Source: a virus
DNA: 44,198 nucleotides
Strand: one strand, 5' to 3'
IMG/VR virus record: IMGVR_UViG_3300042539_000771
Location: 1 to 44,198 of that record
Shown: piece after piece, positions 5,099 to 28,649 of the stretch
Position numbering within the stretch: the first letter of the stretch is position 1
Layout: every line of letters begins with the position of its first letter
Notes under the pieces: model-generated
What the model saw: the letters and a program-made list of their open reading frames with translations, nothing else
Told to the model about the DNA's origin: nothing
The model's database searches: none
Translations under genes and position numbers: made by a program

Positions 5099-6145
5099 TC
5101 AGGCGTTCGGGAGGCCCGTGAGGTAGCGCATCGAGAGGGGCTGGTAGATCACGAAGCCCGCGATCCTGCCGATCGCCATGATCCTGACGCCCAGACCGAT
5201 CTCCTGCGGCGGGCGGAGCGTGAAGGGCTGGGGGACGACGATCTCGAAGTTCTGATTGCTCGTCGCCATGAGAAGGCCGCGCGACTGATTCGCGGCGGTG
5301 CCGTCCGCCTCCTTCAAGCGATTGAGATCGATCACGCGCCTCACGGAGCCGTTGATCTTGAGGAAGCGCTCAAGCACCGACTCCGGCCGTCCGTCGGTGA
5401 ACATCGTATGTGCGAGACGGAGCCGTGCATACATCGGAAGCGCGAGCGTATCCGGAGCGAAGGTGCCGTCCGAGTCGGACACCTGCGCGGCGACCGCGGT
5501 TAGTAGATTGTCCAGCATCGTCTGCGCGACAAGGCCGCCCGTGGCCCACGCCGCGGAGGTAAGGGCCGTAGATCTGACCTGCGTCGAGCCCGTGCCGACG
5601 GGATGATTACAGACGCCCGAAGCGATGCCGTGGACCGTATCGCCGCGCGCCGCGACGCGGTCCACGAGACGATCGAAGGCCTCGCGTGCCGCCGCGAGCT
5701 TGCGGGCCTGGAGCGGCTTTCCTGCGCGCGCCGCGCGCCGCATCTCGGCCATAGAATAATTCACGGCGACGCCCGCCGTGAAGATCGCTCGAGTTTGCTT
5801 GACCCCCTTGATCTCTACCGATCGCAGATCGTCGCCGAGGGAGTCGTCGGAGATGAAGGCGGCTTCGCCGACTCTGTCGATCTCTTCCCACGCGAAAGAC
5901 TCCGCGTCCGCGTCGACATCCGAGGACATCGGCACGGCGGCGACGGTTTGAAGATTCGAGTATGGGGCCTCATAGACCCGCGCGCGGAGCTGCTCGAGCT
6001 GGAGCGCGAGCATGGCGGTCTCGTCCGCGTCGAGGCGTCGATTGCGGTAGTCGCGATCGATCTCCTCGTCCTCGGCGGTGCGGTTTGCGATCTCGGAGAG
6101 TCGTCGCGCGGCGCGGAGACTCTCGTCGGAGGGCTTGATGTTCAT
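5099..6145 (-). CDS. Major capsid protein (DUF2184-like)
   Basis: This encodes 348 aa. The pattern fits the DUF2184 capsid family: a helical N-terminus, a segment with MSSDVDADAESFAWEEIDRVG, a central VAVNYSMAEMRRAARAGKPLQARK and a C-terminus with PFTLRPPQEIGLGVRIMAIGRIAGFVIYQP. The ATG at 6145 is preceded by AAGGA at about 10 nt. It lies downstream of the decoration protein and the protease/scaffold gene, as expected. No signal of cleavage can be seen, although the upstream protease may trim it. A strong terminator follows. Confidence 0.85.
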   Translation of the reverse strand: MNIKPSDESLRAARRLSEIANRTAEDEEIDRDYRNRRLDADETAMLALQLEQLRARVYEAPYSNLQTVAAVPMSSDVDADAESFAWEEIDRVGEAAFISDDSLGDDLRSVEIKGVKQTRAIFTAGVAVNYSMAEMRRAARAGKPLQARKLAAAREAFDRLVDRVAARGDTVHGIASGVCNHPVGTGSTQVRSTALTSAAWATGGLVAQTMLDNLLTAVAAQVSDSDGTFAPDTLALPMYARLRLAHTMFTDGRPESVLERFLKINGSVRRVIDLNRLKEADGTAANQSRGLLMATSNQNFEIVVPQPFTLRPPQEIGLGVRIMAIGRIAGFVIYQPLSMRYLTGLPNA

Positions 6146-6182
6146 GAGTCGTTGATCCTTGTGAGGCGGGAAGTGGGGGTTT

Positions 6183-6713
6183 TCAGGCGCCGCTGCCGAC
6201 GGTCGCCGCGTCCTGGTTGCCGAAGAGATTGACTTCGACGATCGCGCATCCGGCCGCGCCTGTCGTCTGCGCGATCCGGAGGCCCGGAACGAGAACCTCC
6301 CCTGTCGGGATCGAACCCGCCGCGGTGCCTTGCGCATAGCCCTTCAAGGCCCCGGTAGAGAGGACAATCCCAACACACTCCCCCGCCGTCACGGCCTCGA
6401 CGAATTCCATATACACCGATCCGAGCCGGAGCACGGACGCAGACTTGCCCGCCACGATTCCGGAGCCGCCGATATCCTCCACAGGCCTCGAGGTATCCAG
6501 CAGCACTACGCCGGCGAGCATCGCGACAGTGACCGTGTCCCCAGTCGTGACGGGCGAAATCTGATCGTCCGCGTCCGTGCCGCGCTTCGCGAGGCGCCCC
6601 GCGCTGATAGCCGTCTGCACGGTGAAGGATCGGGCAAATTTCGGCGCCAGGGGCTCCGCAAGTTGTCCGGGGTAGGCGTGCGCGAGATCGGAAACGACCG
6701 AATTGAAAGGCAT
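6183..6713 (-). CDS. Capsid decoration/cement protein (DUF2190/gp24-like)
   Basis: This encodes 176 aa. It starts MPFNSVVSDLAHAYPGQLAEP and carries Gly/Val-rich strand segments (TVAMLAGVVLLD, YMEFVEAVTAGECVGIV), a pattern typical of structural cement proteins placed just before the major capsid gene. Such proteins bind the outside of the expanded capsid and stabilise it. The start has a CGGAG Shine-Dalgarno about 9 nt upstream. Length fits the family. Assigned by pattern and position. Confidence 0.65.
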   Translation of the reverse strand: MPFNSVVSDLAHAYPGQLAEPLAPKFARSFTVQTAISAGRLAKRGTDADDQISPVTTGDTVTVAMLAGVVLLDTSRPVEDIGGSGIVAGKSASVLRLGSVYMEFVEAVTAGECVGIVLSTGALKGYAQGTAAGSIPTGEVLVPGLRIAQTTGAAGCAIVEVNLFGNQDAATVGSGA

Positions 6714-7871: not shown

Positions 7872-8717
7872 CTAGTCTCCGAGGATCGGGATCGCCACGC
7901 ACCGGCATTGGTAGTCGGTCCCGGGGTTCGCGCGGTCGCCCTCGAGGTTCACGATCGGCGGATCCGCGAACGCGAAGATCTTTCCGTCGAGCGCGTAGTG
8001 TAGACCCTTCGGCCATTTCCCCGAAGGGTTCCCGCGGACGCGCTCGTCTCGCGACGTGCTCCACCGATAGTGCGTGATCCCGACCTCGGAGCAGCGCGCG
8101 ACCGTAAGATCCCCGTTCCCTTTCAAGATCTGATCTCGCGCGATCAGATTCGCGCGCGACTGCGAAACGTCGAAACGCTCCCGGATCTGATCCGCGATCG
8201 TCTCGACGCGCGTCCCCTCGCGCGCGCCTGCGCGGACGACGTCGCGCACGTCCCCGTGCAGGCGCTTCGCGATCGAGGTGATCAGGCCTACGTTTTCGCG
8301 ACGCCAGGCCTCAAGAAGTCGGAGGATCGCGGGGGGCTCCGCGTCAATGTCGATCCGGAGAACCGCGGCGAGATCTTCGACGTTCCACTTGTTGATCCGG
8401 CGCCCGAAACGGTCAACGAGATCGAGCGCTCGATCCTTCGCGATCTTCTCGAGCCGGACCCGGAGAAGGCCGAAGTCCAGATCCCCCGCCGCGTCCTCGC
8501 GCGCCTCCGCGCGTTGCTCCTCGCGCCGCGCGTCGAGCCAGGGCCGGACGAAGGCGCGGACCTCCGCCGCTAGATCGCGGTTCAAGCTTCGCAGGGCGCC
8601 CGCGTACGCCTCCGCGACGTCGAGAGGTACCGCGGGCCGCTTCGCGACGCGCTCGCGCTTTGCGAGGGCGGCACGGCGCGCCGCGAGGGCCGCGCGCCTC
8701 GAGGGCTTCGCCGTCAC
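7872..8717 (-). CDS. Minor head / head morphogenesis protein (Mu F / SPP1 gp7-like)
   Basis: This encodes 281 aa from a GTG at 8717 that overlaps the portal stop as GTGA; longer starts would intrude into the portal gene. The N-terminal third is highly basic (repeated RRAALAARR), which suggests DNA or portal contact. The C-terminal part has the family signature: SRANLIARDQILKGNG, then YRWSTSRDERVRGNPSGKWP and a closing NPGTDYQCRCVAIPIL, the Cys-Arg-Cys end typical of Mu F-like proteins. It acts inside the procapsid at the portal vertex. Position after the portal gene is standard. Confidence 0.8.
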   Translation of the reverse strand: MTAKPSRRAALAARRAALAKRERVAKRPAVPLDVAEAYAGALRSLNRDLAAEVRAFVRPWLDARREEQRAEAREDAAGDLDFGLLRVRLEKIAKDRALDLVDRFGRRINKWNVEDLAAVLRIDIDAEPPAILRLLEAWRRENVGLITSIAKRLHGDVRDVVRAGAREGTRVETIADQIRERFDVSQSRANLIARDQILKGNGDLTVARCSEVGITHYRWSTSRDERVRGNPSGKWPKGLHYALDGKIFAFADPPIVNLEGDRANPGTDYQCRCVAIPILGD

Positions 8718-10198
8718 GGGGCCTGGACCTCGACGCGCCGCGCGCGCTCGACGAAGTAGGGCTCCGCCCAAGCGTACTGACGGGCAGGATCCGCGGAGTC
8801 GAGATCGAGAAAGAAGATCCGCCCGTTCGCGACGGCGGTTACCTGTAGCCGGTGCTGATCGCCGGTGTCAATCCAGGTCTCGCCCGAAGCGGGGCGGAGG
8901 ATCTCCGGATCGGCTCCGTCGTCTTCCTCGAGGGCTCCGATCTTCGCAGCCTCAAGGATCTCGTGGTAGCTCGCGCCTCCGAGCCGGATCTCGCGCGCCT
9001 CCGCCGCGTCGATGACTCCGGACGCGATCCGAGCCGCGTCCGTCGTCGCCTCGATCGACTCCTGCGCGGCCTTCTCCGCCGGCGTCGGGGTCCACAATGC
9101 AGGCCACCTAATCTCCCCCGACCATTCGATCGCGTTCGCGCGCGCGACGGTCCGGATCAGGGTCGCGATCTGCGCTTCGTGGCGCTGGCGCTCGACCTCG
9201 ATCCGCTTGTACCAGATCCGGAGATCGCTCTCGCCCGTGGCGTTCATTCCGACCGGCGAGACCCCGAGAAGGCGCGTTGCCGGCATTCCAGCCCACGACG
9301 CCACACGTTGAAGGATCCGGCCCTGTAGCGCGTCGACGCCCGTAAGGTTCGCCGCTCCGACGTGCTCGAATGACTCGCCGTCCGCGTCGAGAACCACGGC
9401 GCGCGAGACGCTCCGCGCGAGATCCACGATCTCCATGCGATCGCGCATGATCGACGCCTGGCCGTTCGCGATCATCGTGACGAGATCCTTGATCTTAAAA
9501 ACCGCTTGACTCAGATCTTGGAACGCGGAGATCACGGCCGCGTTGCTTGACCCTTCGTCTCGGAGCGCGTCGTAAGGGCGTTGTAGGACCGAGAGATCCT
9601 TTCCGGAGCGGTTGATCTTCGTTCGCGCGGGAGTCAGGGCCCCACCGAAGAAAACGAAGCGGCTCGCGTGGATCTCCTGACCCACGCGCGCGCCCGAGAT
9701 CCAGTAGTGCGAGGGGCGCCCATAGCTCGCGCTCGCGCGCGATTCCTCGAAGCGCGAGGGGGTCAAGTCGATCCCGTCGACGGCCTCGAGGAAGGTCAGA
9801 TCCCCGGGCTGGATCGCCTCGAGGGCGACCGGGGCCGACTGGGGGCCGAGCCGGTCCGAAAGGCCGATGTAGACGGCCCCTCGCCCGTACGCGCGGCCCC
9901 AGCGCCAGGCCTCGCCCGCGCGGTCGATCGCGCCGGTGCGTCGGAGCGCTTGATCGAGCGCCTCCGAGCCGGTGCCGATCCCGGTTCCGATCGCGTCGTC
10001 CGGGACCGCGTCGACGATGGTTCCGGCGAGCCCGTTTCCGAGGTAAAGGGCCTCGATCGTGACATCGTCGATCGCGACGAAGATCGGGCGTACCGACGTC
10101 GAGCGATCGCGCGCACCTCCGAGGCCCGTCACCAGCGAAAACCAGCCGTCCTCGCGGAGCTGATCCTTGAACCACGCTGTCAGATCTCGAAGCGCCAT
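8714..10198 (-). CDS. Portal protein (DUF1073 family)
   Basis: This encodes 494 aa. The N-terminal LYLGNGLAGTIVDAVPDDAIGTGI, central RFVFFGGALTP and RVASWAGMPATRLLGVSPVGMNATGESDLRIWYKRIEVERQRH are the landmarks of the DUF1073 portal family. The last of these is the strongly conserved stem/wing region. Portals form the dodecameric DNA gate that binds terminase and the neck. Some databases label this family anti-CBASS Acb1-like; length and position show a portal. The start is 7 nt behind GGCTACACT (10206-10214), with no Shine-Dalgarno. Confidence 0.85.
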   Translation of the reverse strand: MALRDLTAWFKDQLREDGWFSLVTGLGGARDRSTSVRPIFVAIDDVTIEALYLGNGLAGTIVDAVPDDAIGTGIGTGSEALDQALRRTGAIDRAGEAWRWGRAYGRGAVYIGLSDRLGPQSAPVALEAIQPGDLTFLEAVDGIDLTPSRFEESRASASYGRPSHYWISGARVGQEIHASRFVFFGGALTPARTKINRSGKDLSVLQRPYDALRDEGSSNAAVISAFQDLSQAVFKIKDLVTMIANGQASIMRDRMEIVDLARSVSRAVVLDADGESFEHVGAANLTGVDALQGRILQRVASWAGMPATRLLGVSPVGMNATGESDLRIWYKRIEVERQRHEAQIATLIRTVARANAIEWSGEIRWPALWTPTPAEKAAQESIEATTDAARIASGVIDAAEAREIRLGGASYHEILEAAKIGALEEDDGADPEILRPASGETWIDTGDQHRLQVTAVANGRIFFLDLDSADPARQYAWAEPYFVERARRVEVQAP

Positions 10199-10205
10199 GC
10201 GCGGA

Positions 10206-10214
10206 AGTGTAGCC
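10206..10214 (-). promoter_or_regulatory. GGCTACACT box before portal gene
   Basis: This is a one-mismatch version of the TGCTAnnnT box. It overlaps the last base of the large terminase stop codon and ends 7 nt before the portal ATG. Confidence 0.4.
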
Positions 10215-11722
10215 TACTCCCGCGAGGCTCCGCCGCGCGCGTCCTCTGCCATTTTCGCGACGGCCTCCGCGTAGGATCGGGCGGAGCGCGAGTCGAGGAT
10301 CAGAAGGGCCATGGTCGTTGCGTCGACGTCGTCATCGTGTTTCGCCAGAGGAAAGCGCTGCAACGTCGCGGCGTAGTCTGCCACCCAAGGCGCCACGGAA
10401 TCGGGCGGAACGAGCGCGCGCCCGGTTTCGAATAGGTACGCCTTCGCTTCGGCGCGCGAATACTTTGACGCTTGACCCGGATCCCACGGAGTCAAGCCCA
10501 CAAGCTCCGCCTTGAAAAAGTCGACGATCGCCGTGCCATTCGCCTTGTCCTCGATATAGATCGCCGCGCCGGGGAAGCGTGCCGCCATGGCGAAAAGGGC
10601 GCGGACGGTCTCGCTCGCAGACATGCGGCGGGTGTCTCGAGCGAGGAGCAGGAACGCGCCGGCGACGGGCCCGCGCCACGCCTGGATCGCGACTAGGTCG
10701 CTCGACTTCGTATCTTTGAACGTAGCGTCGCACGTGATGATCGTGCGCCCGCCGACGGGAGGTTCACCCGTCAACGGATCGGGCTTCCATCGATGATCCA
10801 AGACGCGCTTGAATAGCATCCCGTCGGGCGGGGTCGGATCCTGATTGTTTTGCGCGGCGTGCCCTTGGGGCCCGAGCGCGACGCGATCGGCTTCGATCAC
10901 TTCCGCCGGGAAGCGGTCCGGACACAAAAGCTCGCCGTCAACGGTGCGCGGATCACGGAATCCGGTTTCGCGAACGACGCACGCGGAGCGGCTCGAGAAT
11001 TCCGCCGGAAGGATCAAGGCCGTATACCCCGCCTCGATCGCGCGCCCGGGGGTGTCGTCGTGGTGCAAGCGCTGGCCGATGAGAACGCGCCGCGTGGTGC
11101 GCGCGTCCGCGCGGCGGGTGTGTAGCGTGCTGAACCAAAACCGATTGGCGCGCTCGAGCGCGATCGGATCGAGCGCCGCGCGTCCGTCCGCGTCCTGCGC
11201 TTTCGCGAGATCGTCCCCCACGAGAATGTCGGCGTGATAGCCCGTGACGGTCCCGCCCACGGACGTCGAGAAGCGCCAGCCCTTCGACCGGACGCGAAAC
11301 ATGCGGATCCGATCCTCAACGTCGGAATCAAGCGCCAGCGCGGGCCAGCGCGCGCGCCACCATTCGGTCTCGAGAAGCCCGCGGAGGATCCGCGCAGACT
11401 TCTCGGAGAGATCCTGCGCGTAGGTCGCGGAGATCGTGCGGCGCGTCGGATCGACCGCCAGCCAATCCCACGCGTTCCACAGGGTCACGAGAAGCGACTT
11501 GGAGTGTCCGGGGGGAACGGCGATCACGAGATCGCGGATCTGGCCTCGAGAGACCGCCTCGAGGTGTTCACAGATCGCGCCCATATGCCACGACCATCGA
11601 CACGGAGACGGCTCGACGTAAGGCCAGGCGAGGCGCGCGAACGCGGAGAAGGCGCGCCGCGACTGCTCTCTGTCGAGCGCGACGATCGTCTCGGCGATCT
11701 TCTGTCGGTCCTCGGAGATCAC
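10214..11722 (-). CDS. terL: Terminase large subunit
   Basis: This encodes 502 aa and packages DNA at the portal. The N-terminal ATPase has Walker A VPPGHSKS (residues 69-76) and Walker B ILVGDD (166-171). The C-terminal RNase H-like nuclease shows Asp332 in TCDATFKD, Glu391 in IYIEDKANG and the acidic KHDDDVDATT near 461-470. These are all the motifs expected of an active enzyme. Length is normal. The ATG overlaps the metallophosphoesterase stop as ATGA. The small subunit is unusually far away (16353-16952), separated by small genes. Confidence 0.95.
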   Translation of the reverse strand: MISEDRQKIAETIVALDREQSRRAFSAFARLAWPYVEPSPCRWSWHMGAICEHLEAVSRGQIRDLVIAVPPGHSKSLLVTLWNAWDWLAVDPTRRTISATYAQDLSEKSARILRGLLETEWWRARWPALALDSDVEDRIRMFRVRSKGWRFSTSVGGTVTGYHADILVGDDLAKAQDADGRAALDPIALERANRFWFSTLHTRRADARTTRRVLIGQRLHHDDTPGRAIEAGYTALILPAEFSSRSACVVRETGFRDPRTVDGELLCPDRFPAEVIEADRVALGPQGHAAQNNQDPTPPDGMLFKRVLDHRWKPDPLTGEPPVGGRTIITCDATFKDTKSSDLVAIQAWRGPVAGAFLLLARDTRRMSASETVRALFAMAARFPGAAIYIEDKANGTAIVDFFKAELVGLTPWDPGQASKYSRAEAKAYLFETGRALVPPDSVAPWVADYAATLQRFPLAKHDDDVDATTMALLILDSRSARSYAEAVAKMAEDARGGASRE

Positions 11723-13292: not shown

Positions 13293-13492
13293 GCCCCGCG
13301 AAGCTCCGCCCGCCAGCGCTCGACCCCGCGCTTCGCCGGATCGGTCGGCACGGCCTCGAGGGCAACTCGCGCGCGATCGAGCGCCTTCTCGTCGGAGTCG
13401 GCTCCGGAGAACGCGGCGAGGAACCCAGGGGCCGCGCGGGAGACGATCTCGAGCGCGGCGATCACGATCCGGACGATCTCGGTTTCGGGCAT
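13289..13492 (-). CDS. Small helical protein, function unknown
   Basis: This encodes 67 aa, predicted helical, beginning MPETEIVRIVIAALEIVSRAAPGFLAAF. No motif was recognised. Its regulation is the point of interest: the start codon lies in one arm of a perfect 12-bp inverted repeat (13489-13519), the -10-like TACGCT straddles the arm-loop boundary, and a parS-like palindrome covers the -35 position (13517-13532). It overlaps the SprT-like gene by 4 nt. Confidence 0.6.
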   Translation of the reverse strand: MPETEIVRIVIAALEIVSRAAPGFLAAFSGADSDEKALDRARVALEAVPTDPAKRGVERWRAELRGA

Positions 13493-13534: not shown

Positions 13535-13798
13535 TCAGTCCGCCAGCCAGGCCTCTAGAGCGTCATCCTCCGCGCGGCGCTCCGCGCTCCGGGTGTCGGG
13601 CCGGGTTGCGTGATTCGCGACGCACATAGCATGAGCGTTCTTGCGCGCCTTGGGTGTCCGGGGCGCCGCGTCGTTGTAGGTTCCGGCCACGTCCGCCCTG
13701 TAGCAGGCGACGTGCGCGTACGTATCATCCAACCCCGGAACGAGGAACGACGCGCGAGCGCCCTTGCAGTACATGCAGCGATTCTTGGTATTCGTCAT
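13535..13798 (-). CDS. Small cysteine-rich protein (cassette gene 1)
   Basis: This encodes 87 aa beginning MTNTKNRCMYCKGARASFLV, with CxxC (residues 8-11), then HVACYRAD and a further Cys/His pair (MCVANHA). This pattern suggests a small zinc-binding fold, possibly HNH-like or treble-clef-like, but no catalytic HNH pattern is clear. It is expressed from promoter-leader module R1 and shares the MTNT start with other cassette genes. Function unknown; a host-interaction protein is inferred from context. Confidence 0.7.
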   Translation of the reverse strand: MTNTKNRCMYCKGARASFLVPGLDDTYAHVACYRADVAGTYNDAAPRTPKARKNAHAMCVANHATRPDTRSAERRAEDDALEAWLAD

Positions 13799-13892
13799 CG
13801 TGATCTCGCTTTCTTTCTCGCCGTCGCCCTTGCTGACTCAGTGAAACTAGCATCGGCTCCGGAGAAGCGCAACCCCCGCGCCGATCTTTTTT
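13799..13892 (-). promoter_or_regulatory. Promoter-leader module R1
   Basis: The -35 is TTGCGC (13867-13872), the spacer exactly 17 bp and the -10 TAGTTT (13844-13849), preceded by TGC. An ATCGGC/GCCGAT inverted repeat (13852-13857 with 13880-13885) encloses the -35. On the plus strand it is followed by CTTTTTT. The leader carries GAGTCAGCAAGGGCGAC and a purine-rich GAAAGAAAG before the ATG at 13798. Confidence 0.8.
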
Positions 13893-13909
13893 CGATCTTT
13901 CTTTCAAGC

Positions 13910-13927
13910 GCCCGATCTTGCTCGGGA
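13910..13927. repeat. 18-bp repeat, copy 1 (GCCCGATCTTGCTCGGGA)
   Basis: The same 18 bases recur at 18781-18798. Each folds as CCCGA-TCTTGC-TCGGG. This copy lies upstream of module R1; the other lies in the candidate origin. A shared operator or small hairpin is possible. Confidence 0.6.
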
Positions 13928-13947
13928 ATCGGGTGGCGGAAATAGGC

Positions 13948-14019
13948 GCGCCCGCCGGGAAAGGGACCGGCGGGCGCTAGGACGAACGAAAGAGGAGCCG
14001 GACGAACGAGAACCGGACG
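13948..14019 (-). ncRNA. Possible small RNA ending in a strong hairpin
   Basis: A TGCTAGGGT box (14026-14034) has no start codon behind it. Instead it is followed by a pyrimidine-rich stretch with repeated CGTTCGTCC units and then a perfect 11-bp hairpin (13948-13958 with 13967-13977, loop 8 nt). The predicted RNA is about 72 nt. There is no long U-run, so the hairpin could simply be the end of the lipoprotein transcript. Confidence 0.25.
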
Positions 14020-14039
14020 AGACCTACCCTAGCACGGAT

Positions 14040-14471
14040 TCAGAAGGCCGGGAGATCGGGAAGCGGGAGCCCGAGCCTCGCCGCGACGGCGCGGAGGTCC
14101 GCGTAGCTCGCGGCGAAGGCTCGAGCGAAGGCGAGCGCGGCGCCCAGCAAGCCCTCGGAGTCACCGGAGCGGCTCGCCGCGACCGTCGACGCGTACCAGG
14201 CGCCGAGGGCCAGGCGGGCGCCGGAGAAGGCGAGGTCGACGGGAGCCCAGCGATCCGAGACCGTGGCGAGGCACGCGTCCGGCTCCGACGCGCCTCGGGG
14301 GCAGGATGCCCGCGCGTCGGTCTCGGAGGCGAGCGAGATCGCGTCCCCCGCCGTCGACGTCGCGAGCGCGGCGACCTCGAGCGCGTGCGCGGAGGTGCGT
14401 ACCGGGCTCGAGCCGCAACCCGCGGCTAGGATCAGGAAGGCGAGGGGTAGCAGGCTCCGGAGCTTGATCAT
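14040..14471 (-). CDS. Phage lipoprotein
   Basis: This encodes 143 aa. The start MIKLRSLLPLAFLILAAGC is a complete lipoprotein signal peptide with lipobox Leu-Ala-Ala-Gly-Cys, lipidation at Cys19. The mature part is Ala-rich and helical with one Cys pair (ASCPRGASEPDAC). The start at 14471 follows TGCTAGGCT by 7 nt. It differs from the lipoprotein at 4004-4240 in sequence and length. Possible roles are receptor masking, superinfection exclusion or an outer spanin; no proline-rich or spanin-like partner is adjacent, so the last is unlikely. Confidence 0.75.
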   Translation of the reverse strand: MIKLRSLLPLAFLILAAGCGSSPVRTSAHALEVAALATSTAGDAISLASETDARASCPRGASEPDACLATVSDRWAPVDLAFSGARLALGAWYASTVAASRSGDSEGLLGAALAFARAFAASYADLRAVAARLGLPLPDLPAF

Positions 14472-14478
14472 GCTCCGG

Positions 14479-14487
14479 AGCCTAGCA
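14479..14487 (-). promoter_or_regulatory. TGCTAnnnT box before lipoprotein gene
   Basis: TGCTAGGCT ends 7 nt before the ATG at 14471 in a 23-nt intergenic gap. No Shine-Dalgarno other than CCGGAG inside the same 7 nt is visible. Confidence 0.5.
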
Positions 14488-14494
14488 CGGGGGG

Positions 14495-14713
14495 TCAGGC
14501 CCAGAGTCGGGCGGGGTACGCGGGGATCCGTCCGAGGCGCTCCCGCTTCGCATTGACGGCGCGGAGGGCCGCTCGAGCGGCCTCGATCCCGTGACTCTCG
14601 ATCATGCGCCCGAAGATCCATTCGATGACGATCGGGTCGCAGGTGAGCGCGTTGACGCCGTAGGTCGTTTCGCAGTCGAGGATCATCGCGTCGCGTGCGT
14701 TCGTGTTCGTCAT
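14495..14713 (-). CDS. Small unknown protein (cassette gene 2)
   Basis: This encodes 72 aa starting MTNTNARDAMILDCETTYGV. The C-terminal half is basic and helical (GIEAARAALRAVNAKRERLGRI). No family is recognised. The ATG at 14713 is set by module R2, and its first codons copy those of the other cassette genes. It lies between two separately promoted units, so it can be expressed independently. A role in host takeover is inferred only from the array it belongs to. Confidence 0.65.
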   Translation of the reverse strand: MTNTNARDAMILDCETTYGVNALTCDPIVIEWIFGRMIESHGIEAARAALRAVNAKRERLGRIPAYPARLWA

Positions 14714-14813
14714 GGTCTTTTTCTTCGCTTTCTTTTCGGTCGCCCTTGCCGACTCGGTAACAATGGATCGGAGCCGGACCGGGCGCAAGATCTTTCTCTC
14801 GCGCCTCGGTCGA
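14714..14813 (-). promoter_or_regulatory. Promoter-leader module R2
   Basis: The -35 is TTGCGC (14783-14788), the spacer 17 bp and the -10 CATTGT (14760-14765). A left arm TCGACCGAGGCGC (minus strand, 14801-14813) pairs imperfectly across the -35. The leader contains GAGTCGGCAAGGGCGAC and a purine-rich stretch before the ATG. Confidence 0.75.
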
Positions 14814-14869
14814 TTCTCGTCAATCCGCCACGCCTTCGGCCTTTTCCTCCGGAGCCTAGCACGCGAGGA

Positions 14870-15100
14870 TCAGAAACACGGATCCAGGATCGTCTCGCTC
14901 TTTCCGAGCGCGAGCCGGAAGTTTCCGGACCTCCACGATCCGAAGCGGTTGAGGCGAAAGATCATAGGCTTCTCGTCCTCGCGGGCGATCTTCGCCGTCA
15001 CGGTGAAGGGAGTTACCCGGAGGATCTTCGCGGCGTATTGATCCGATCCGATGCAGATAGAGGCGGGGGTCTCGGTCGTGATCTCGTTCGTCTTCGTCAT
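14870..15100 (-). CDS. Small unknown protein (cassette gene 3)
   Basis: This encodes 76 aa beginning MTKTNEITTETPASICIG, with alternating hydrophobic and charged residues (AAKILRVTPFTVTAKIARED, MIFRLNRFGSW) that suggest a small beta-barrel. A similar architecture occurs in many short phage proteins of unknown role. Start chosen because module R3 leads directly to it. About 55 nt separate its stop from the left arm of module R2, and I see no gene there. Confidence 0.65.
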   Translation of the reverse strand: MTKTNEITTETPASICIGSDQYAAKILRVTPFTVTAKIAREDEKPMIFRLNRFGSWRSGNFRLALGKSETILDPCF

Positions 15101-15194
15101 GGTGTTTCTTCGCTTTCTTTCTCGGTCGCCCTTGCTGACTCCGAGACTATAGATCGGAATCTGGCGGAGCGCAAGGCCCCGCCCGATCTTTTTC
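15101..15194 (-). promoter_or_regulatory. Promoter-leader module R3
   Basis: The -35 is TTGCGC (15169-15174), the spacer 17 bp and the -10 TATAGT (15146-15151), the best -10 of the set. GATCGG and CCGATC arms flank the -35, and the plus strand carries GATCTTTTT after the hairpin. The leader has GAGTCAGCAAGGGCGAC followed by GAGAAAGAAAG. Confidence 0.8.
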
Positions 15195-15467
15195 TCAATC
15201 CGACACGCCCTCAGCCTTTTCCTGCTCGGGCGTCATCGTCCGCGCGTACCAGGACGGGCCGACCTTGACGATCCGGCGGTAGGTAGACCCCCTCCCGCGA
15301 CCTCCGGCCGGAGGAGCACCCTCGAGGCCCAGCGCGCCGCGCTCGAGCGCCTCCCGCTCGAGCGTCGAGAGGCGCCCGACGGCGATCCGGCGCGCGCTCC
15401 GATGGCTCCCCCACCCGTCCACGACTCGATCGGCGTCGATCCAGATCTCGATCTTCGCGGAGGTCAC
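15195..15467 (-). CDS. Small unknown protein coupled to cassette gene 4
   Basis: This encodes 90 aa from a GTG at 15467 that overlaps the preceding stop as GTGA, so it is the second gene of a two-gene cassette. The N-terminus TSAKIEIWIDADRVVDGWGS suggests a beta-alpha fold, followed by a basic helical segment and a C-terminal YRRIVKVGPSWYARTMTPEQ. No family is recognised. It has no module of its own and depends on module R4. Confidence 0.55.
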   Translation of the reverse strand: MTSAKIEIWIDADRVVDGWGSHRSARRIAVGRLSTLEREALERGALGLEGAPPAGGRGRGSTYRRIVKVGPSWYARTMTPEQEKAEGVSD

Positions 15468-15685
15468 AGGGCCTCGATCGCGTTGAAAGGGACAACCACC
15501 ATCGGGAGCTTCCGAATGCCTCCGCCGATCACGATCGCCGGGAGGAAGATCCGCGCCATTCCGCTCGGGGCGCGCCCGTCGAATTCGACGGCGACGCCTG
15601 CGGGGATCTCGATCGAGGCGCCCGACGCCTGCGGGCGATCGTCGAAGTATCGAACGGGGGTCGTGAGATAATGCGTGGGGGTCAT
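15464..15685 (-). CDS. Small unknown protein (cassette gene 4)
   Basis: This encodes 73 aa starting MTPTHYLTTPVRYFDDRP, beta-rich, with ARIFLPAIVIGGGIRKLPMVVV near the C-terminus. The hydrophobic stretch is short and broken by glycines, so it is more likely a buried strand pair than a membrane helix. Start set by module R4. The first residues MT-T resemble the other cassette products. Function unknown. Confidence 0.6.
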   Translation of the reverse strand: MTPTHYLTTPVRYFDDRPQASGASIEIPAGVAVEFDGRAPSGMARIFLPAIVIGGGIRKLPMVVVPFNAIEAL

Positions 15686-15776
15686 GTTCGCTCTCTTTCT
15701 TTCTCGGTCGCCCTTGCGACTTGGTGAACCTAGCATCGGCTCCGGAGCCCGTCAAGGCTCCGGAGCGATTTTCTTT
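15686..15776 (-). promoter_or_regulatory. Promoter-leader module R4, with -35 in a hairpin loop
   Basis: The -35 is TTGACG (15750-15755), the spacer 17 bp and the -10 TAGGTT (15727-15732). The -35 is exactly the 6-nt loop of a perfect 11-bp inverted repeat (15739-15749 with 15756-15766, core CTCCGGAG). On the plus strand the hairpin is followed by GATTTTCTTTT, a good intrinsic terminator. Confidence 0.85.
15739..15776 (+). terminator. Plus-strand intrinsic terminator overlapping module R4
   Basis: The 11-bp GC-rich stem GCTCCGGAGCC with a 6-nt loop is followed by a T-rich tract on the plus strand. It would stop rightward (antisense) transcription at the point where the leftward promoter sits. 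Confidence 0.7.
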
Positions 15777-16229
15777 TCAGACCCCGTATGTTCCGCCCAT
15801 GCACGCGGTCGAGGCGATCTCGATCTTCGTGAAAGGCTTGCGCCCGATCTTGATCACGCTCTTTCGCTGGTAGGGGGCAAGCACGATCCCGTCGTAGGAT
15901 CGCCCGTTGTGATCGCAGGATCCCGCGTGGGTCTGATCGAGGTAGCAATAGCCGGAGCCGTCGAACGCCCGGATCCGCCCGCACACCAGCGTACCGAAGT
16001 AATCCGCGACGACGACGTCGCCGATCCGGAGGGTCGTCGCGCTGGGTCCGTGGGGTCCGGATTCGAGCTTGCGACGCGCGAGGGCTAGATACCCCTCGAC
16101 CGCGGCGAGGCGCCCCCAGGGGCGAACCAGCGCCCCCACGGAGATCCCGAGACTCTTAGCGACGGCGCGGAGCGCGACTCGAGCGGCCTTGCGGTTCTTT
16201 TCGTTCGTGATCGTGGGGATGTTGGTCAT
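15777..16229 (-). CDS. Unknown protein (cassette gene 5)
   Basis: This encodes 150 aa starting MTNIPTITNEKNRKAARVAL, the longest product driven by a module. The N-terminal 60 residues are helical and basic (KAARVALRAVAKSLGISVGALVRPWGRLAAVEGYLALARRKL) and could form an HTH. The C-terminal half is beta-rich (LRIGDVVVADYFGTLVCGRIRAF) and has the look of a small barrel, with Cys and His in CYLDQTHAGSCDHNG. DNA binding is possible but not shown. Start set by module R5. Confidence 0.65.
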   Translation of the reverse strand: MTNIPTITNEKNRKAARVALRAVAKSLGISVGALVRPWGRLAAVEGYLALARRKLESGPHGPSATTLRIGDVVVADYFGTLVCGRIRAFDGSGYCYLDQTHAGSCDHNGRSYDGIVLAPYQRKSVIKIGRKPFTKIEIASTACMGGTYGV

Positions 16230-16335
16230 GGTCTTTGCTCTCTTTCTTTCGTGTCGCCCTTGCTGACTCAGTGAAACTAGCATCGGCTCCCGAGAAGCGC
16301 AAGCCCCCGCCCGATCTTTTTTCGATCTTTTTCTC
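16230..16335 (-). promoter_or_regulatory. Promoter-leader module R5
   Basis: The -35 is TTGCGC (16297-16302), the spacer 17 bp and the -10 TAGTTT (16274-16279), almost the same sequence as R1. ATCGG/CCGAT arms enclose the -35, with CTTTTTT following on the plus strand. The leader has GAGTCAGCAAGGGCGAC. Confidence 0.8.
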
Positions 16336-16352
16336 GCGCCCTACGGATCGCC

Positions 16353-16952
16353 CTAGTTTGCTTGGGGATCCGGCTCCCGCTCCGGCGCTCGAGCGGGATC
16401 CGTCACGGCCTCGAGGGTAGCGCGGAGCTTGGCTAGCGCGTCGTCCGGGACGTGCGAGAGATCGATCGCCGTGCGGGCCGTAGGCTCGCCGCTCGCGAGC
16501 CGCTCTAGCTCGATCGCGGCTTTCATCGCCGCAACGGCCGTGCGAGCGTCTAGAAGCTCCCCGGCGGCGGAGCGGGCGAGGATTGACTCAGTCGCCCAAG
16601 CGAGCGCGGCGGACGTCGCTCGAGCGTGCGCGGCGCCCTGCTCTCGCGCCTCGCGGACGGCTCCGGAGATCCGGGCGTCGTGTAAGTGGGCCTCGAGGGC
16701 CGCGCGCCTCGCACGCCAGCGCCAGCGAGCCGCGAGGGCCGCCAGCGCCGGCGCGCCGCTCGAGCCTTCGGCCCGCGCGAACGCCGCGATCGTCGGGGCC
16801 TCCGACATGACGAAGCGAGAGAAAAGGGCCCAAGCTAGATCCGGCTCCCCGGGTTGACGGGACCACGGATCCAGCGCGGCGGGCGGGCCCTCGAGGGGCT
16901 CCGCGCCGTCGCTTTCGTCGTCGTCCCGTCGAGCGTGGGATCTGCGGGTCAC
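16353..16952 (-). CDS. terS: Terminase small subunit-like protein
   Basis: This encodes 199 aa from a GTG at 16952 that overlaps the previous stop as GTGA. The middle segment WALFSRFVMSEAPTIAAFARAEG followed by AARWRWRARRAALEAHL matches phage small terminase-like proteins: an HTH region followed by a WxWRxRAxAWExHL helix. The C-terminus is a long Ala-rich helix (oligomerisation) and a short tail. The small subunit recognises the packaging site and loads the large subunit. It lies 4.6 kb upstream of terL, with small genes between, which is unusual. Confidence 0.7.
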   Translation of the reverse strand: MTRRSHARRDDDESDGAEPLEGPPAALDPWSRQPGEPDLAWALFSRFVMSEAPTIAAFARAEGSSGAPALAALAARWRWRARRAALEAHLHDARISGAVREAREQGAAHARATSAALAWATESILARSAAGELLDARTAVAAMKAAIELERLASGEPTARTAIDLSHVPDDALAKLRATLEAVTDPARAPEREPDPQAN

Positions 16953-17191
16953 TCCGTCACGGTAGCACGGGGAACCACGGGGCCCCAATCCCCCGGACAT
17001 CGCGGACACCTCGGGGCGCGCCGCTCGAGCGGGCCGACCGCGTCCGATCCGATGTCCGTTGTCAGGATGTCGAACACGCGCGCGGAGGACGCGGGCGCGA
17101 GCGTCGGTTGACACGCGGTTGTCGTCGTCACGCGCCAGGACATTCGCGAGACGTGCCAGACACCCTCGATCAACGCGTACACGCGGATCAC
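16949..17191 (-). CDS. Small unknown protein before the small terminase gene
   Basis: This encodes 80 aa from a GTG at 17191 (GTGA overlap with the previous gene), starting as MIRVYALIEGVWHVSRMSWRV. The C-terminus has RCPRCPGDWG, a CxxC that could bind zinc. It ends with a GTGA overlap into terS, so it is translationally placed between cassette gene 6 and terS. Function unknown; the overlaps on both sides support it being real. Confidence 0.6.
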   Translation of the reverse strand: MIRVYALIEGVWHVSRMSWRVTTTTACQPTLAPASSARVFDILTTDIGSDAVGPLERRAPRCPRCPGDWGPVVPRATVTE

Positions 17192-17415
17192 GCGGACACC
17201 TCGAGGGTCACGCACGGGTGGCCCATGGTGCCCGAAAACGTGTTCCAACACGTCACGAAGCGGCGCCCGTAGCTATTCGTCCAACCCTCGGAGAAGTCGA
17301 ATCCAGCGCCCGAGATCAAGGCGCGCGCGCCCTCGAACGTGCGAGCCTCCGGCGCGAGGGCCTCCCAAGCGCTCCGGACCTTGCGCGCCGCGTCGATCTT
17401 CTGCTCGTTCGTCAT
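17188..17415 (-). CDS. Small unknown protein (cassette gene 6)
   Basis: This encodes 75 aa, MTNEQKIDAARKVRSAWEAL at the start. An N-terminal helical region is followed by SGAGFDFSEGWTNSYGRRFVTCWNTFSGTMG, rich in aromatic residues. No family is recognised. Driven by module R6. It heads a three-gene unit (this gene, the 80-aa gene, terS) joined by GTGA overlaps, so module R6 may also serve the small terminase gene. Confidence 0.65.
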   Translation of the reverse strand: MTNEQKIDAARKVRSAWEALAPEARTFEGARALISGAGFDFSEGWTNSYGRRFVTCWNTFSGTMGHPCVTLEVSA

Positions 17416-17507
17416 GGTGTTTCTTCTCTTTCTTTCTCGTTCGCCCTTGCGACTCAGTGAACCTAGCACCGGCTCCGGAGCCTGTCAACTCCGGAGCCGA
17501 TCTTTTT
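17416..17507 (-). promoter_or_regulatory. Promoter-leader module R6, with -35 in a hairpin loop
   Basis: The -35 is a perfect TTGACA (17483-17488), the spacer 17 bp and the -10 TAGGTT (17460-17465), preceded by TGC. The -35 lies in the 8-nt loop of an 11-bp perfect inverted repeat (17470-17480 with 17489-17499). The leader has GAGTCGCAAGGGCGA, then purine-rich sequence to the ATG at 17415. Confidence 0.9.
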
Positions 17508-17508
17508 T
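17470..17508 (+). terminator. Plus-strand intrinsic terminator overlapping module R6
   Basis: The stem CGGCTCCGGAG with an 8-nt loop is followed after 3 nt by TTTTTT on the plus strand, a textbook intrinsic terminator. It overlaps the leftward promoter completely. Confidence 0.8.
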
Positions 17509-17795
17509 CAGCGGGCCCATTCCGTGAGGATCTCGTGAGCCAGCGCGAGAGCATCGAAGCTCGCGATCGGGAGCTTGATCGTCTCGCGATGCTCCGGAAC
17601 CGTGTAGCCAAGGCCTTCGCCCGCGCGGCACGCTCGAGCAGGGAGCCGGCGCGAGAGGGTGACGGTGTTAGCGTTAGGGCGGACCACGATCCCGCCGACG
17701 GGGCGGAGCCCGCGACCGTCGCGCGAAGGCGCGTAGATCATCCCGAAGTTCTCGCCGGTCATGCTGATCTCGTAGGTTGCGGTGGCGTTCGTCAT
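17508..17795 (-). CDS. Small unknown protein (cassette gene 7)
   Basis: This encodes 95 aa starting MTNATATYEISMTGENFGMI, beta-rich in the first half (GIVVRPNANTVTLSRRL) and helical at the C-terminus (IASFDALALAHEILTEWAR). No family is recognised. Start set by module R7. Its stop overlaps the T-tract of the R6 terminator on the other strand. Confidence 0.65.
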   Translation of the reverse strand: MTNATATYEISMTGENFGMIYAPSRDGRGLRPVGGIVVRPNANTVTLSRRLPARACRAGEGLGYTVPEHRETIKLPIASFDALALAHEILTEWAR

Positions 17796-17889
17796 CGTTT
17801 CCTTCTTCTTTCGTTGTCGCCCTTGCGACTTGGTAAGAATGGATCGAAGTCGACCGAGGCGCAAGATCTTTTTTCGGCGCCTCGGTCGA
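17796..17889 (-). promoter_or_regulatory. Promoter-leader module R7
   Basis: The -35 is TTGCGC (17859-17864), the spacer 17 bp and the -10 CATTCT (17836-17841). A perfect 13-bp inverted repeat TCGACCGAGGCGC (17850-17862 with 17877-17889, loop 14 nt) covers the -35. Here the T-run lies in the loop, so it is an operator-like rather than a terminator-like repeat. Confidence 0.8.
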
Positions 17890-17894
17890 TTGTC

Positions 17895-18122
17895 TCAGAT
17901 CGCCGGGATTCGCTCGGATCGCGGCGCCGGATCCCGACCCCAGGAGAACGCGATCGGGGTCTCACACCCGGCCGCGCGCATCTTCGCGCGCCATTCGTCC
18001 GCCAGCGCTCGAGCCTCGAGGCGCCCCGCGGCGCGAGCGCGGACGCTCGAGCGGGCGCTAGCCCGGAGCGGGCGCCCGACCGTGTAGACGGGCGCCCCGG
18101 CGGAGTAGATCCACCATCGCAT
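17895..18122 (-). CDS. Small unknown protein coupled to cassette gene 8
   Basis: This encodes 75 aa starting MRWWIYSAGAPVYTVGRPLR, then a basic helical stretch (SARSSVRARAAGRLEARALADEW) and CETPIAFSWGRDP. The ATG is 2 nt after the stop of cassette gene 8, so the two should be cotranslated. No family recognised and no own promoter module. Confidence 0.5.
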   Translation of the reverse strand: MRWWIYSAGAPVYTVGRPLRASARSSVRARAAGRLEARALADEWRAKMRAAGCETPIAFSWGRDPAPRSERIPAI

Positions 18123-18124
18123 GA

Positions 18125-18316
18125 TCAGATCGCCCCGCGGCGGAGAAGCTCGGCCGCGATCGCGGCGCCTTCGTCGCGGTACTTTCCGGCCCGATCGCCT
18201 CCGTTGACGTCGGCGCGGTCGATCGAGTCCATGGCCTTCGCCGCCTCCGCGCAGTCCTGGCGCGCGTAGAAAAGCTCGGCGGTCGTCATCGTGCGGATCT
18301 TGTCGGTGTTCGTCAT
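18125..18316 (-). CDS. Small unknown protein (cassette gene 8)
   Basis: This encodes 63 aa starting MTNTDKIRTMTTAELFYARQ, entirely helical and charged. It may be a two- or three-helix bundle. The start follows module R8. The first four codons are again the MTNT type, suggesting that the leader and early coding region were copied as one unit. Function unknown. Confidence 0.65.
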   Translation of the reverse strand: MTNTDKIRTMTTAELFYARQDCAEAAKAMDSIDRADVNGGDRAGKYRDEGAAIAAELLRRGAI

Positions 18317-18410
18317 GTTCGCTCGCTTTCTTTGTTGTCGCCCTTGCGACTCGGTAAGAATGGATCGGAGTCGACCGAGGCGCAAGATCTATTTTCGGGG
18401 TCTCGGTCGA
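18317..18410 (-). promoter_or_regulatory. Promoter-leader module R8
   Basis: The -35 is TTGCGC (18380-18385), the spacer 17 bp and the -10 CATTCT (18357-18362). TCGACCGAG (minus strand, 18402-18410) and CTCGGTCGA flank the -35, a weaker version of the R7 repeat. The leader holds GAGTCGCAAGGGCGAC. Confidence 0.8.
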
Positions 18411-19115: not shown

Positions 19116-19183
19116 CGTGAGATCCCGCACACGACCCCCGCCGGAGCCGGCGCCTCGCCCCTAGTCGTGTGCGCTAACTCACG
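19116..19183. repeat. Long interrupted palindrome upstream of primase promoter
   Basis: CGTGAG, 4 nt, CGCACACGAC (19116-19135) is mirrored by GTCGTGTGCG, 4 nt, CTCACG (19164-19183), with a 28-nt GC-rich centre. The 16 paired bases match perfectly and the 4-nt internal loops are placed symmetrically. It could extrude as a cruciform, fold as RNA, or bind a dimeric protein. Confidence 0.75.
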
Positions 19184-19219
19184 GATGAAGGCTATCCCGC
19201 CGCGGGCGCCGATAGGCGC

Positions 19220-19256
19220 TTGACACCTCGCCGGCTCCGATCCATGCTCCGGGCCG
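19220..19256 (+). promoter_or_regulatory. Rightward promoter R9 (leaderless)
   Basis: TTGACA (19220-19225), a 17-bp spacer and CATGCT (19243-19248) lie only 8 nt before the ATG at 19257, so the transcript should begin at or very near the start codon. The spacer shares GGCTCCGATC with module R2, so the same sigma factor or regulator may read both directions. Confidence 0.75.
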
Positions 19257-26550: not shown

Positions 26551-28649
26551 AGATCTTCGGCCTGGATACCGAGACGTATCCGATCAAGCCCGCCCGCCAG
26601 GCGCCGCGCGTCGTTTGTGTCCAAACCCGCGACGAGACCGGGAGCCGCGTCGAGTTACGCGATCCCGGGCTCGATCGCCTCGAGTCCGCGCTAGCGGATC
26701 GCGCGGTCCTGATCGTGGGTCACGACGTCGGATACGACGCCCTCGCCTCGATCGCGACGCGCCCGCGCTTGCTCCTTCCATGGCTCGACGCGTACGAAGC
26801 CGATCGCGTTGTCTGCACCCACGTCCGGGAGAGCCTCGCGCGGATCGCCGAGGGCTCGAGCGATCGACACCGCGATCGCTCGCTCCTGGGGTGCGTCGAG
26901 CGGTACAAGATCCCGCACGCTTTCGAGACCGGAGACAAAGACAAGGGCTCCGTGCGGACCCGGTTTCACGAAGTCGACGGGATCCCCGTCTCCGCCTGGC
27001 CCGAGGGTTTCGAGCGGTACGCGCTGGCGGACCTCGTCGCCGTCGACGTTTTCGAGGCCCAGCGCGCCGCGTTCTCGCCCGCGTGGTTTCAGGATCAGTA
27101 TCGCCGCTCGCGCGCGGATTTTTGGCTGCGCGTCACCTCCGCCCACGGGATGCGAGTCGACGCTCGAGCCGTTGCTCGCTTCGCCGCGCTTGTCGAGGAG
27201 GAGCACCGGACGTGCCTTGCGATCCTCGCGGACGCGAACGAGGCCGCGCTGGCGCGCTTCGCGGACGATCACGATCTCGAGCGCGTCGACGCGGTCCCGC
27301 CGGTCCGCGGTCTCGTCCGCTACGAAGGGACGCGCGACCTCAAAGCCGCGCGCGCCCGCATGGAGTCCGTGTGCCTCGCTCGAGCGCTCCCCGTGCCCGT
27401 CACGGCGACCGGAAAAGAGAAGGGGCTCGACGTTGGGGCCGGCGCTTACGTCGCCTTGGACGCGGACGCCTGCGCCGCTTCGGGCGATCTCCAGCTTCGC
27501 GCCTATGCTCGCTTCACCTCGATCGGGACGCTCCGGAGCCGGGCCGATCGCCTCGCCCTCGCCGCGCGTCTCGGGGTCCCCGTACAACCCCGCTTCGATC
27601 CGCTGAAAAAGACGGGCCGGACCTCATGTAGCAAGGGAGAATCCGCACCCGGCGAGCCGCTAAACGCGGTCGGGGACCAGACTCAGAACCTCAACCGCGA
27701 GCCGGGCCTGCGCGAATGCTACGTCGCGCGCCCGGGGTGCGTGATCCTCTCGGGCGACTGGAAAGCCGCGGAGCTTCACACGCTCGCCCAGACTTGCGCG
27801 GATTGGGGCCTTGACTCCAACCTCGCGCGGGTTCTCCGGGAAAAGGACGCGCACGTTTGGTTCGGCGCGATCTCGCAGGGCTGGACGTACGAATACGCGA
27901 TCGAGGCCCTCCGCGGGGATCACGGGCCCGAGGCGAAAAAGAAGGCGAAAGCCGCGCGCCAAGGCGCGAAGGCCTGCAATTTCGGATTCCCGGGAGGGCT
28001 CGGGATCGCGAAGTTTCGAGCTTGGGCCGCGAAAACGTACGGAGTGATCTGGAGCGAGGCGGAGGCCTCGAGGCGCAAGGCCCAATGGCTCGACGCTTTC
28101 CCGGAAATGTTCGGATACTTCCGGATCGTCGATCGGATCGTCAACTCCGGCGCGCCGCTCGAGCATCCCCGCTCGGGTCGGTTCCGCGGGGATCTGACGT
28201 TCACGAGCGCCGCGAATTCGCCTTTCCAGGGCCGGTGCGCGGACATGCTCGTTGACGCGGGCTGGAGATCGATGGCCTGGATCTACCGCAACGGAATCCC
28301 GGCGCGGACGTGGAACGAGGCGCATGACGAGATCCTTTTCGAGATCCGAGAGGATCAGGCGCACGAGATCGCGACCGAGATCACGAAGATCATGGACGAC
28401 GTCGGCCGCGAATGGTGCCCGATCGCTCCGTGTCGCGCGGAGCCCGCGCTACAACGACACTGGCGGAAGGGCGCGGAGCCTGCGTACCGCGCGAGGCGCC
28501 TGATCCCGCACGAGGATCGGGACCTCGGCCCGGAGGATCTCGAGTCGATCCGAAAGGCTCTAGCGTCGGGCGAAGACGCCTTGCGCGTCTCTTGGACCTA
28601 TGGTATCGAGGAGTCGCGAGCGATCGCGATCGAAAGGGGCGGACGATGA
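26547..28649 (+). CDS. Family A DNA polymerase with 3'-5' exonuclease
   Basis: This encodes 700 aa from a GTG at 26547 (GTGA overlap). The exonuclease motifs are FGLDTET (Asp7, Glu9), VGHDVGYDA and a YALADLVAVDVF region (Exo III). The polymerase motifs are A (SGDWKAAELHTLAQ, Asp404), B (QGAKACNFGFPGG, Asn478) and C (NEAHDEILFE, His593-Asp594-Glu595). All key residues are in place. Its size fits T7-like and phage PolA enzymes. It leads a chain of genes with overlaps of only a few nt (usually 4) to 33032, so it is coexpressed with the ligase and nucleotide enzymes. Confidence 0.9.
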   Translation: MKIFGLDTETYPIKPARQAPRVVCVQTRDETGSRVELRDPGLDRLESALADRAVLIVGHDVGYDALASIATRPRLLLPWLDAYEADRVVCTHVRESLARIAEGSSDRHRDRSLLGCVERYKIPHAFETGDKDKGSVRTRFHEVDGIPVSAWPEGFERYALADLVAVDVFEAQRAAFSPAWFQDQYRRSRADFWLRVTSAHGMRVDARAVARFAALVEEEHRTCLAILADANEAALARFADDHDLERVDAVPPVRGLVRYEGTRDLKAARARMESVCLARALPVPVTATGKEKGLDVGAGAYVALDADACAASGDLQLRAYARFTSIGTLRSRADRLALAARLGVPVQPRFDPLKKTGRTSCSKGESAPGEPLNAVGDQTQNLNREPGLRECYVARPGCVILSGDWKAAELHTLAQTCADWGLDSNLARVLREKDAHVWFGAISQGWTYEYAIEALRGDHGPEAKKKAKAARQGAKACNFGFPGGLGIAKFRAWAAKTYGVIWSEAEASRRKAQWLDAFPEMFGYFRIVDRIVNSGAPLEHPRSGRFRGDLTFTSAANSPFQGRCADMLVDAGWRSMAWIYRNGIPARTWNEAHDEILFEIREDQAHEIATEITKIMDDVGREWCPIAPCRAEPALQRHWRKGAEPAYRARRLIPHEDRDLGPEDLESIRKALASGEDALRVSWTYGIEESRAIAIERGGR

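Follow-up and report, generated by a model that had tools for sequence, protein, structure and literature searches.

Eight promoter-leader modules on the minus strand

The window analysed here is the whole of one virus record (IMGVR_UViG_3300042539_000771), a stretch of 44,198 bases with a GC content of 68%. Between positions 13799 and 18410, its minus strand carries eight promoter-leader modules (M1 to M8) of ~100 bases each, every one of them preceding a different small gene, and the eight sit between a minus-strand block of structural genes and a plus-strand block of replication genes. We consider it probable that they serve a tailed phage as composite expression modules, and double as stretches of recombination homology for the exchange of the genes behind them.

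The presence of eight such modules, put forward in a preliminary description of this DNA, is confirmed, with all eight carrying a predicted -35 box (TTGCGC in six, TTGACA and TTGACG in one each), a predicted -10 box (TAGTTT, TAGGTT, and CATTCT twice each, CATTGT and TATAGT once each), and a spacer of exactly 17 bp between the two. In every copy the -10 box is followed, after 6 nt, by the first G of a leader element of the form GTC(N)GC-AAGG-GCGAC, then by a purine run and ATG-AC, with the module ending at codon 2-3, past the ATG. The leader word AGTC[N]GCAAGGGCGA has eight matches in the 44 kb, all on the minus strand between 13824 and 18351, compared with none for the reversed control pattern, and the pattern ATGACnAA[CGT] has seven minus-strand matches in the window, every one at a module start. 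The promoter grammar TTG[AC][CG]N-N16-18-[TC]AnnnT finds just 14 matches in the whole window, eight of which are the modules, and a profile built from the eight, which match it by construction, reveals no other convincing match in the window.

Mutual identity of the modules ranges from 60 to 92%, with M1 and M5 being 92% alike over 83 nt, including spacer letters without evident function. The leader was previously given as GAGTCrGCAAGGGCGA, a form that is exact in four copies, the other four lacking the r base, and the purine run said to precede the ATG reads exactly GAAAGAAAG in five leaders and is varied in M2, M7, and M8. To that description can be added a possible leader hairpin, inverted repeats over the -35 box, an A-tract, and the inclusion of the first codons within the module.

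Architecture of the individual modules

M1 (13799-13894, minus strand, as for all eight) comprises an A-tract, the -35 box TTGCGC (13872), the 17 bp spacer, the -10 box TAGTTT, and a purine run, with the leader hairpin GTCaGC-AAGG-GCGAC at 13823-13837; M5 (16230-16324) has the same boxes, with its -35 at 16302 and its hairpin at 16253-16267. In M2 (14714-14810), TTGCGC (14788) is combined with CATTGT, a hairpin region at 14739-14753, and an inverted repeat over the -35 box, and in M3 (15101-15196) TTGCGC (15174) is combined with TATAGT, a hairpin at 15125-15139, and an inverted repeat. The -10 box TAGGTT is shared by M4 (15686-15777; -35 box TTGACG at 15755; hairpin 15707-15720), where the inverted repeat around the -35 box reads GCTCCGGAGC, and M6 (17416-17510; -35 box TTGACA at 17488), where the hairpin is shorter (17441-17452) and the inverted repeat reads CGGCTCCGGAG. 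M7 (17796-17886; TTGCGC at 17864; hairpin 17816-17829; inverted repeat CGACCGAGGCGC) and M8 (18317-18407; TTGCGC at 18385; hairpin 18337-18350; inverted repeat) both carry CATTCT.

The A-tract ends 12-13 bp before the -35 box in M1, M3, M4, M5, and M6 (class A), which also carry TGn ahead of the -10 box, and 2-4 bp before it in M2, M7, and M8 (class B). The offset between the classes, ~10 bp, is one helical turn, and would thus fit a UP element presented on the same face of the DNA. The predicted fold of the leader begins 7 nt after the -10 box, placing it at the predicted mRNA 5′ terminus or immediately beside it, with energies of ~-8 kcal/mol for unbulged copies and -3 to -5 kcal/mol for bulged ones. 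The leader hairpin is likely to be real, the case resting on its position and on an extra G-C pair in the relative L135 described below.

The inverted repeats differ in sequence from module to module (CGACCGAG, CTCCGGAG, GGCGGGG), and in most copies come shortly after the stop codon of the preceding gene, the place expected of a 3′ stem-loop. Compared with dinucleotide shuffles, their z-scores are -5.2 (M7), -4.4 (M6), -4.2 (M4), -4.1 (M2), -2.7 (M3), -2.0 (M8), -1.5 (M5), and -1.0 (M1). Read on the opposite strand, M4 and M6 each present a stem of 11 pairs and then a T-tract. These two modules may accordingly hold an antisense terminator, although such sites are no more numerous across the region than in shuffles.

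Genes in the eight slots

The open reading frames (ORFs) behind the modules, numbered as slots 1 to 8 and all on the minus strand, encode proteins of 87 aa (13535-13798, with a CxxC/HxxC pattern), 72 aa (14495-14713), 76 aa (14870-15100), 73 aa (15464-15685), 150 aa (15777-16229), 75 aa (17188-17415), 95 aa (17508-17795), and 63 aa (18125-18316), respectively. All eight have the character of coding sequence, with GC3 of 0.82-0.90 against GC2 of 0.49-0.57, as in the gene for the large terminase (TerL). Comparison of all eight proteins with one another reveals no similarity, in agreement with the earlier statement that the genes are unrelated, and the first codons that they have in common are MTN. 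The slot-2 and slot-5 proteins have no database match and none in cultured phages, and ten cassette proteins (eight from the window and two from contig B, below) gave no convincing match to Pfam, PHROG, or a defence library. Further ORFs that have no module of their own come after slots 4, 6, and 8, and a rule of one promoter, one gene is therefore approximate.

Gene replacement behind conserved modules

Close relatives of the window were all found as metagenomic assemblies. Over 20.9 kb, contig A (3300042515_002274) shares 99.5% identity with the window, and its arrangement is unchanged. Contig B (3300042475_002790; 30.6 kb), with an identity of 96-98%, carries the full set of eight modules. 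Behind M1, M4, and M6, contig B carries unrelated small ORFs of 62, 63, and 72 aa, all intact. Each time the alignment breaks just inside the start codon, at window position 13791 behind M1 (resuming at 13538), 15680 behind M4 (resuming at 15463), and 17407 behind M6 (resuming at 16923). The replaced spans behind M1 and M4 run from the start codon to the stop codon of the window's gene, and the replacement in slot 6 takes the gene together with the following ~265 nt. Slots 2, 3, 7, and 8 are identical in contig B (7 and 8 at the amino-acid level).

The boundary of the exchange falls at the start codon for M4, the module being nearly unchanged, at the -35 box for M1, and just before the -35 box for M6. 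As the module sequences of M1 and M6 differ there too, the true upstream crossovers would lie somewhat inside these modules. The incoming leaders of slots 1 and 6 are of the GCGACAACGAAAG type, with a near-identical GCGACAACGAAG in the more distant relative L131, and the leader GCGACAAC is common to these incoming cassettes and L131. M5 of contig B retains its gene (97% amino-acid identity) behind an M3-like core reading TTGCGCTCCGCCGGATCCCGATCTATAGTCTC, in which TATAGT with CTCCGCC stands in place of the window's TAGTTT with CTTCTCGG. A changed core with the gene kept fits, and suggests, an exchange between module copies.

All three gene replacements in the ~30 kb common to the window and contig B begin behind a module. 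If breakpoints were uniformly distributed, the probability of finding all three no more than 10 nt away from one of the eight start codons would be ~1e-7 by our own estimate (160/31,500, cubed), which takes 31.5 kb as the span and in which the boundaries within M1 and M6 are blurred. The remaining differences in contig B are the absence of the window gene at 29206-29748, one ORF-bearing intergenic insert near 19200, and one diverged intergenic stretch.

Further relatives

L131 (3300043398_000170) is ~83-85% identical to the window and holds a third gene in slot 4, such that this slot is occupied by three different genes in three phages (73 aa in the window, 63 aa in contig B, and 205 aa in L131) with the downstream junction at the same stop codon in all of them. 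M2 with M3, and separately M1, are absent from L131, each missing as a whole unit of module and gene together. Sharing of genes of the region extends to the wider group, as the 205-aa protein of L131 has two relatives in L135, with 45-49% identity over 55 aa. In L135, 6204-6412 and 9089-9297 are two copies, 85% identical, of a gene segment encoding a product similar to this protein. A protein of a Methanomicrobiales-associated virus (BK063670) likewise resembles the L131 protein, at 33%.

L135, whose TerL is ~50% identical to that of the window, has a 130-nt module of its own in three copies, 69-94% alike, in front of three unrelated genes that all start ATGACGAAC. Its leader reads GTCGGC-AAACA-GCCGAC, or the G-U variant GCCGGC, and likewise begins 7 nt after the -10 box, with one extra G-C pair. 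Layout is thus kept between L135 and the window but sequence is not, the copies being more alike within a genome than between genomes.

Across viral contigs, the 14-base leader pattern and a pattern of purine run plus start gave many single matches, and profile scoring of these found no modules beyond the known relatives. Two weak repeats in L133 were not counted as the same module. L279 (TerL 51%) has promoter-like TTGACG-TAGGTT/TAAGTT repeats at 5730-5900 and 6230-6400, on the opposite strand and with the ATG 6-7 nt after the -10 box; these lack a hairpin leader, were likewise not counted, and are possibly leaderless.

Related promoters outside the modules

A promoter related to those of the modules, TTGACA-17-CATGCT, lies on the plus strand at 19220-19256 before the primase-like operon, with the ATG ~9 nt after the -10 box. 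The gene behind it starts ATGACGAAC, and the hairpin leader is absent. Minus-strand promoters of the same type with very short leaders appear to be present at window positions 13492, 14473, and 14852, and in L131 near 955 and 1490, an L131 example reading TTGACG-17-TACGCT-6 nt-ATG. The presence of both kinds suggests two predicted transcript classes, with and without the hairpin leader. A weak module-like match (TTGCGC, GAGTCGCGAGCGATCGCGA) at 28579-28652 on the plus strand, within the end of the pol A (DNA polymerase) gene and before the RNA ligase gene, was not accepted as a further module.

Discussion

The arrangement described here is consistent with a scheme in which each small gene would be transcribed separately, and early, by host RNA polymerase from a sigma-70-type promoter, with the A-tract acting as a UP element. 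The 5′ hairpin may slow decay of the resulting mRNA, the inverted repeat over the -35 box may help to keep neighbouring units apart, and the purine-rich stretch would serve as the ribosome-binding region leading into the ATG and first codons. Module copies are alike, and can therefore serve as 5′ homology for recombination, which might involve co-infecting relatives as well as different copies within a single genome, with a conserved neighbouring gene supplying the 3′ homology. The outcome would be replacement of the gene behind a module, or gain or loss of a whole cassette, with the expression of neighbours undisturbed. A gene-cassette system had been proposed in the preliminary description, and that proposal is strengthened by the three slot-specific replacements between phages 96-98% identical, the third gene in slot 4, the clean absence of M1 to M3 from L131, and the apparent exchange of a promoter core. 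Relatives lacking the modules yet retaining the same genes would have spoken against it; where L131 lacks modules, it also lacks the genes behind them.

Several observations weigh against this scheme. A scan tuned to the E. coli consensus, which may not be that of the host, matched none of the eight promoters, so that the promoter call is based on the repetition and the fixed spacing instead of a consensus match. Support for the hairpin is weak, with the energies of bulged copies not below those of shuffles and window z-scores unremarkable, and a count of pairs on the module alignment found no two-sided changes. Of the inverted repeats, four are strong (M2, M4, M6, and M7), two moderate (M3 and M8), and two weak (M1 and M5); CTCCGGAG, which contributes to them, is a common word in this genome, and a role for the repeats as sense-strand intrinsic terminators was dropped as the sense U-tract is absent. 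Contig B is the single close comparator with full modules besides contig A, which is of the same type, and both are metagenomic. Gain and loss also occur without modules, as seen in the gene at 29206-29748 and the ORF insert near 19200.

This last observation, along with 3′ junctions of the replacements that carry no module repeat, would be expected if promoters and leaders were alike by function alone, and exchange came about by illegitimate recombination and selection, with the modules giving no homology. We consider this unlikely, given that spacer letters of no evident function are shared between M1 and M5, that M5 of contig B has taken on an M3-like core whilst keeping its gene, and that all three replacements lie behind modules. 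It is similarly doubtful that the modules are in essence shared control sites, at which a protein bound to the leader hairpin or to the -35 inverted repeat (a repressor, translational regulator, or antiterminator) would co-regulate the genes, with swapping incidental. Conservation of loop and stem letters of the leader beyond the needs of pairing, the overlap of the inverted repeats with the -35 box in most modules, and the proposal by the authors of the Adephagia work of a regulator acting at the inverted repeats of the ESAS elements (below) all speak for such sites. However, one protein would not recognise all modules, as the inverted repeats differ between them, and the plus-strand primase promoter has the same core type with no leader.

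Duplication of one ancestral promoter-gene unit, with the coding parts diverged past recognition in its eight copies and no plug-in exchange, would explain both the likeness of the modules, which at 60-92% is as duplicates should be, and the common MTN. This we regard as very improbable: unrelated ORFs of different lengths occupy the same slot in phages 96-98% identical with the adjacent DNA unchanged, slot 4 holds three unrelated genes, and the slot proteins retain zero residual similarity. Repeats of ~100 nt are a usual site of assembly errors, and with all relatives being metagenomic, the replacements could in principle stem from strains misjoined at the repeats. The replaced segments, however, carry intact, coding-like ORFs and at the stop codon rejoin the same unique flank, the independent contig A retains the window's arrangement, and L131 differs independently, which together make an artefact of this kind highly improbable. 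Of the composite expression modules favoured here, a stronger version would make them a dedicated exchange platform, with their likeness kept by selection because it lets homologous recombination trade small early genes within this phage group, each gene being assured of a promoter, an mRNA-protecting hairpin, and a start region; the layout kept in L135 and the concerted change of sequence are in keeping with this, and we hold it as a tentative possibility, less likely than not.

Two known systems work similarly. The promoter-early stem-loop elements (PeSLs) of T4-type phages (Arbiol et al. 2010; Comeau et al. 2014) are described as ‘mobile regulatory cassettes’ and ‘composite conserved promoter-terminator motifs’, in which a promoter and stem-loop are tied to gene shuffling (PMC4503421). 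Repeats combining an early promoter and a stem-loop stand there between small genes, which are shuffled among close relatives as genes are here (in contig B and L131); the present carrier is not of the T4 type. With respect to the two PeSL components, the promoter-like core is present in 8/8 modules, and the stem-loop is strong in four, moderate in two, and weak in two. By comparison with the PeSLs as there described, the present phage is unrelated, its promoters are GC-rich, a hairpin is also proposed to stand where the new transcript begins, the module extends to the start codon and first codons, and the -35 stem-loop has no sense U-tract.

The second system is that of the start-associated sequences (SAS) and extended SAS (ESAS) of cluster K mycobacteriophages (Pope et al. 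2011, PMC3203893; Adephagia, PMC11373665), comprising a SigA-like promoter, an inverted repeat, and the start-associated sequence. The preliminary description had held that the promoter distinguishes the present modules from the cluster K repeats, which is incorrect, as the ESAS has SigA-like -35 and -10 boxes with 17-18 bp spacing; it is given as a repeated intergenic unit of 46-47 bp with an imperfect inverted repeat of 15-17 bp, positioned before genes of different families (PMC11373665). The spacing of the modules (17 bp in 8/8) is of this SigA-like kind. In contrast, the SAS GGGATAGGAGCCC is absent from all eight leaders, the SAS lies 3-9 bp from the start whereas the conserved leader here, positioned at the predicted 5′ end, is ~20-30 nt upstream of the start, and ESAS repeats follow one consensus per subcluster whereas those here are module-specific; further, the passages on the ESAS in these sources describe no gene replaced behind one. 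The present element is a member of neither system, the phage group being different, the SAS sequence absent, and the repeats module-specific.

Individual parts of the module also have counterparts. The early promoters of T4 (UP/-35/TGn/-10) are described as many strong host-polymerase promoters with A/T-rich upstream elements before early genes (PMC2988021); the A/T-rich element and the TGn of class A are alike, with a long leader here repeated along with the promoter. The 5′-terminal stem-loops that stabilise the ompA and papA mRNAs (Emory, Bouvet and Belasco 1992; Bricker and Belasco 1999; cited in PMC3997798) resemble the leader hairpin in their position at or next to the mRNA 5′ end, which is predicted in our case, the hairpin here being short and its energies modest. 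Phage morons, and mosaic boundaries at short conserved sequences (PMC3029335), provide a parallel in small genes with their own promoter that are gained or lost between relatives, whereas in the present phage a standard expression unit is repeated and genes are replaced inside it.

How phages gain and lose many small genes of unknown function, and express them at once on arrival, is a question on which this locus bears, as the genes exchanged behind a standard unit in near-identical genomes allow the exchange to be read base by base. The modules would extend the cases of the T4 PeSL and the cluster K ESAS to an unrelated phage lineage, pointing to a common solution, and the genes behind them would become candidates for host-takeover or counter-defence functions.

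Genome setting and minor observations

The minus-strand structural block contains genes for the major capsid protein (5099-6337), portal (8714-10198), and TerL (10214-11722), and an exonuclease-like gene (11719-about 12930), and primase-like, helicase, pol A, RNA ligase, and nucleotide-metabolism genes follow on the plus strand from 19257. Matches of TerL, portal, and pol A point to families other than T4-type phages, the top cultured match of TerL (37.6%) coming from an Aeromonas phage whose genome measures 43.6 kb. A TerL search of bacterial genomes gave distant matches only, the DNA of the module region has no match in cultured phages, and an Rfam search returned none. The 199-aa ORF at 16356-16952 and a DUF5906-like protein match only in two near-identical contigs.

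The gene at 29206-29748 on the plus strand, cleanly missing from the near-identical contig B, is 5′-deoxynucleotidase-like (phrog_318, E 1e-48). The insert of contig B is ~320 nt (contig B 11775-12097; window about 19183-19216) and lies in a divergent intergenic region before the primase operon; one of its strands reads as a possible short DNA-binding protein, and the adjoining intergenic DNA is 72% alike. The palindrome CTCCGGAG is crowded between 12354 and 17489, where 11 of its 19 copies in the window are found.

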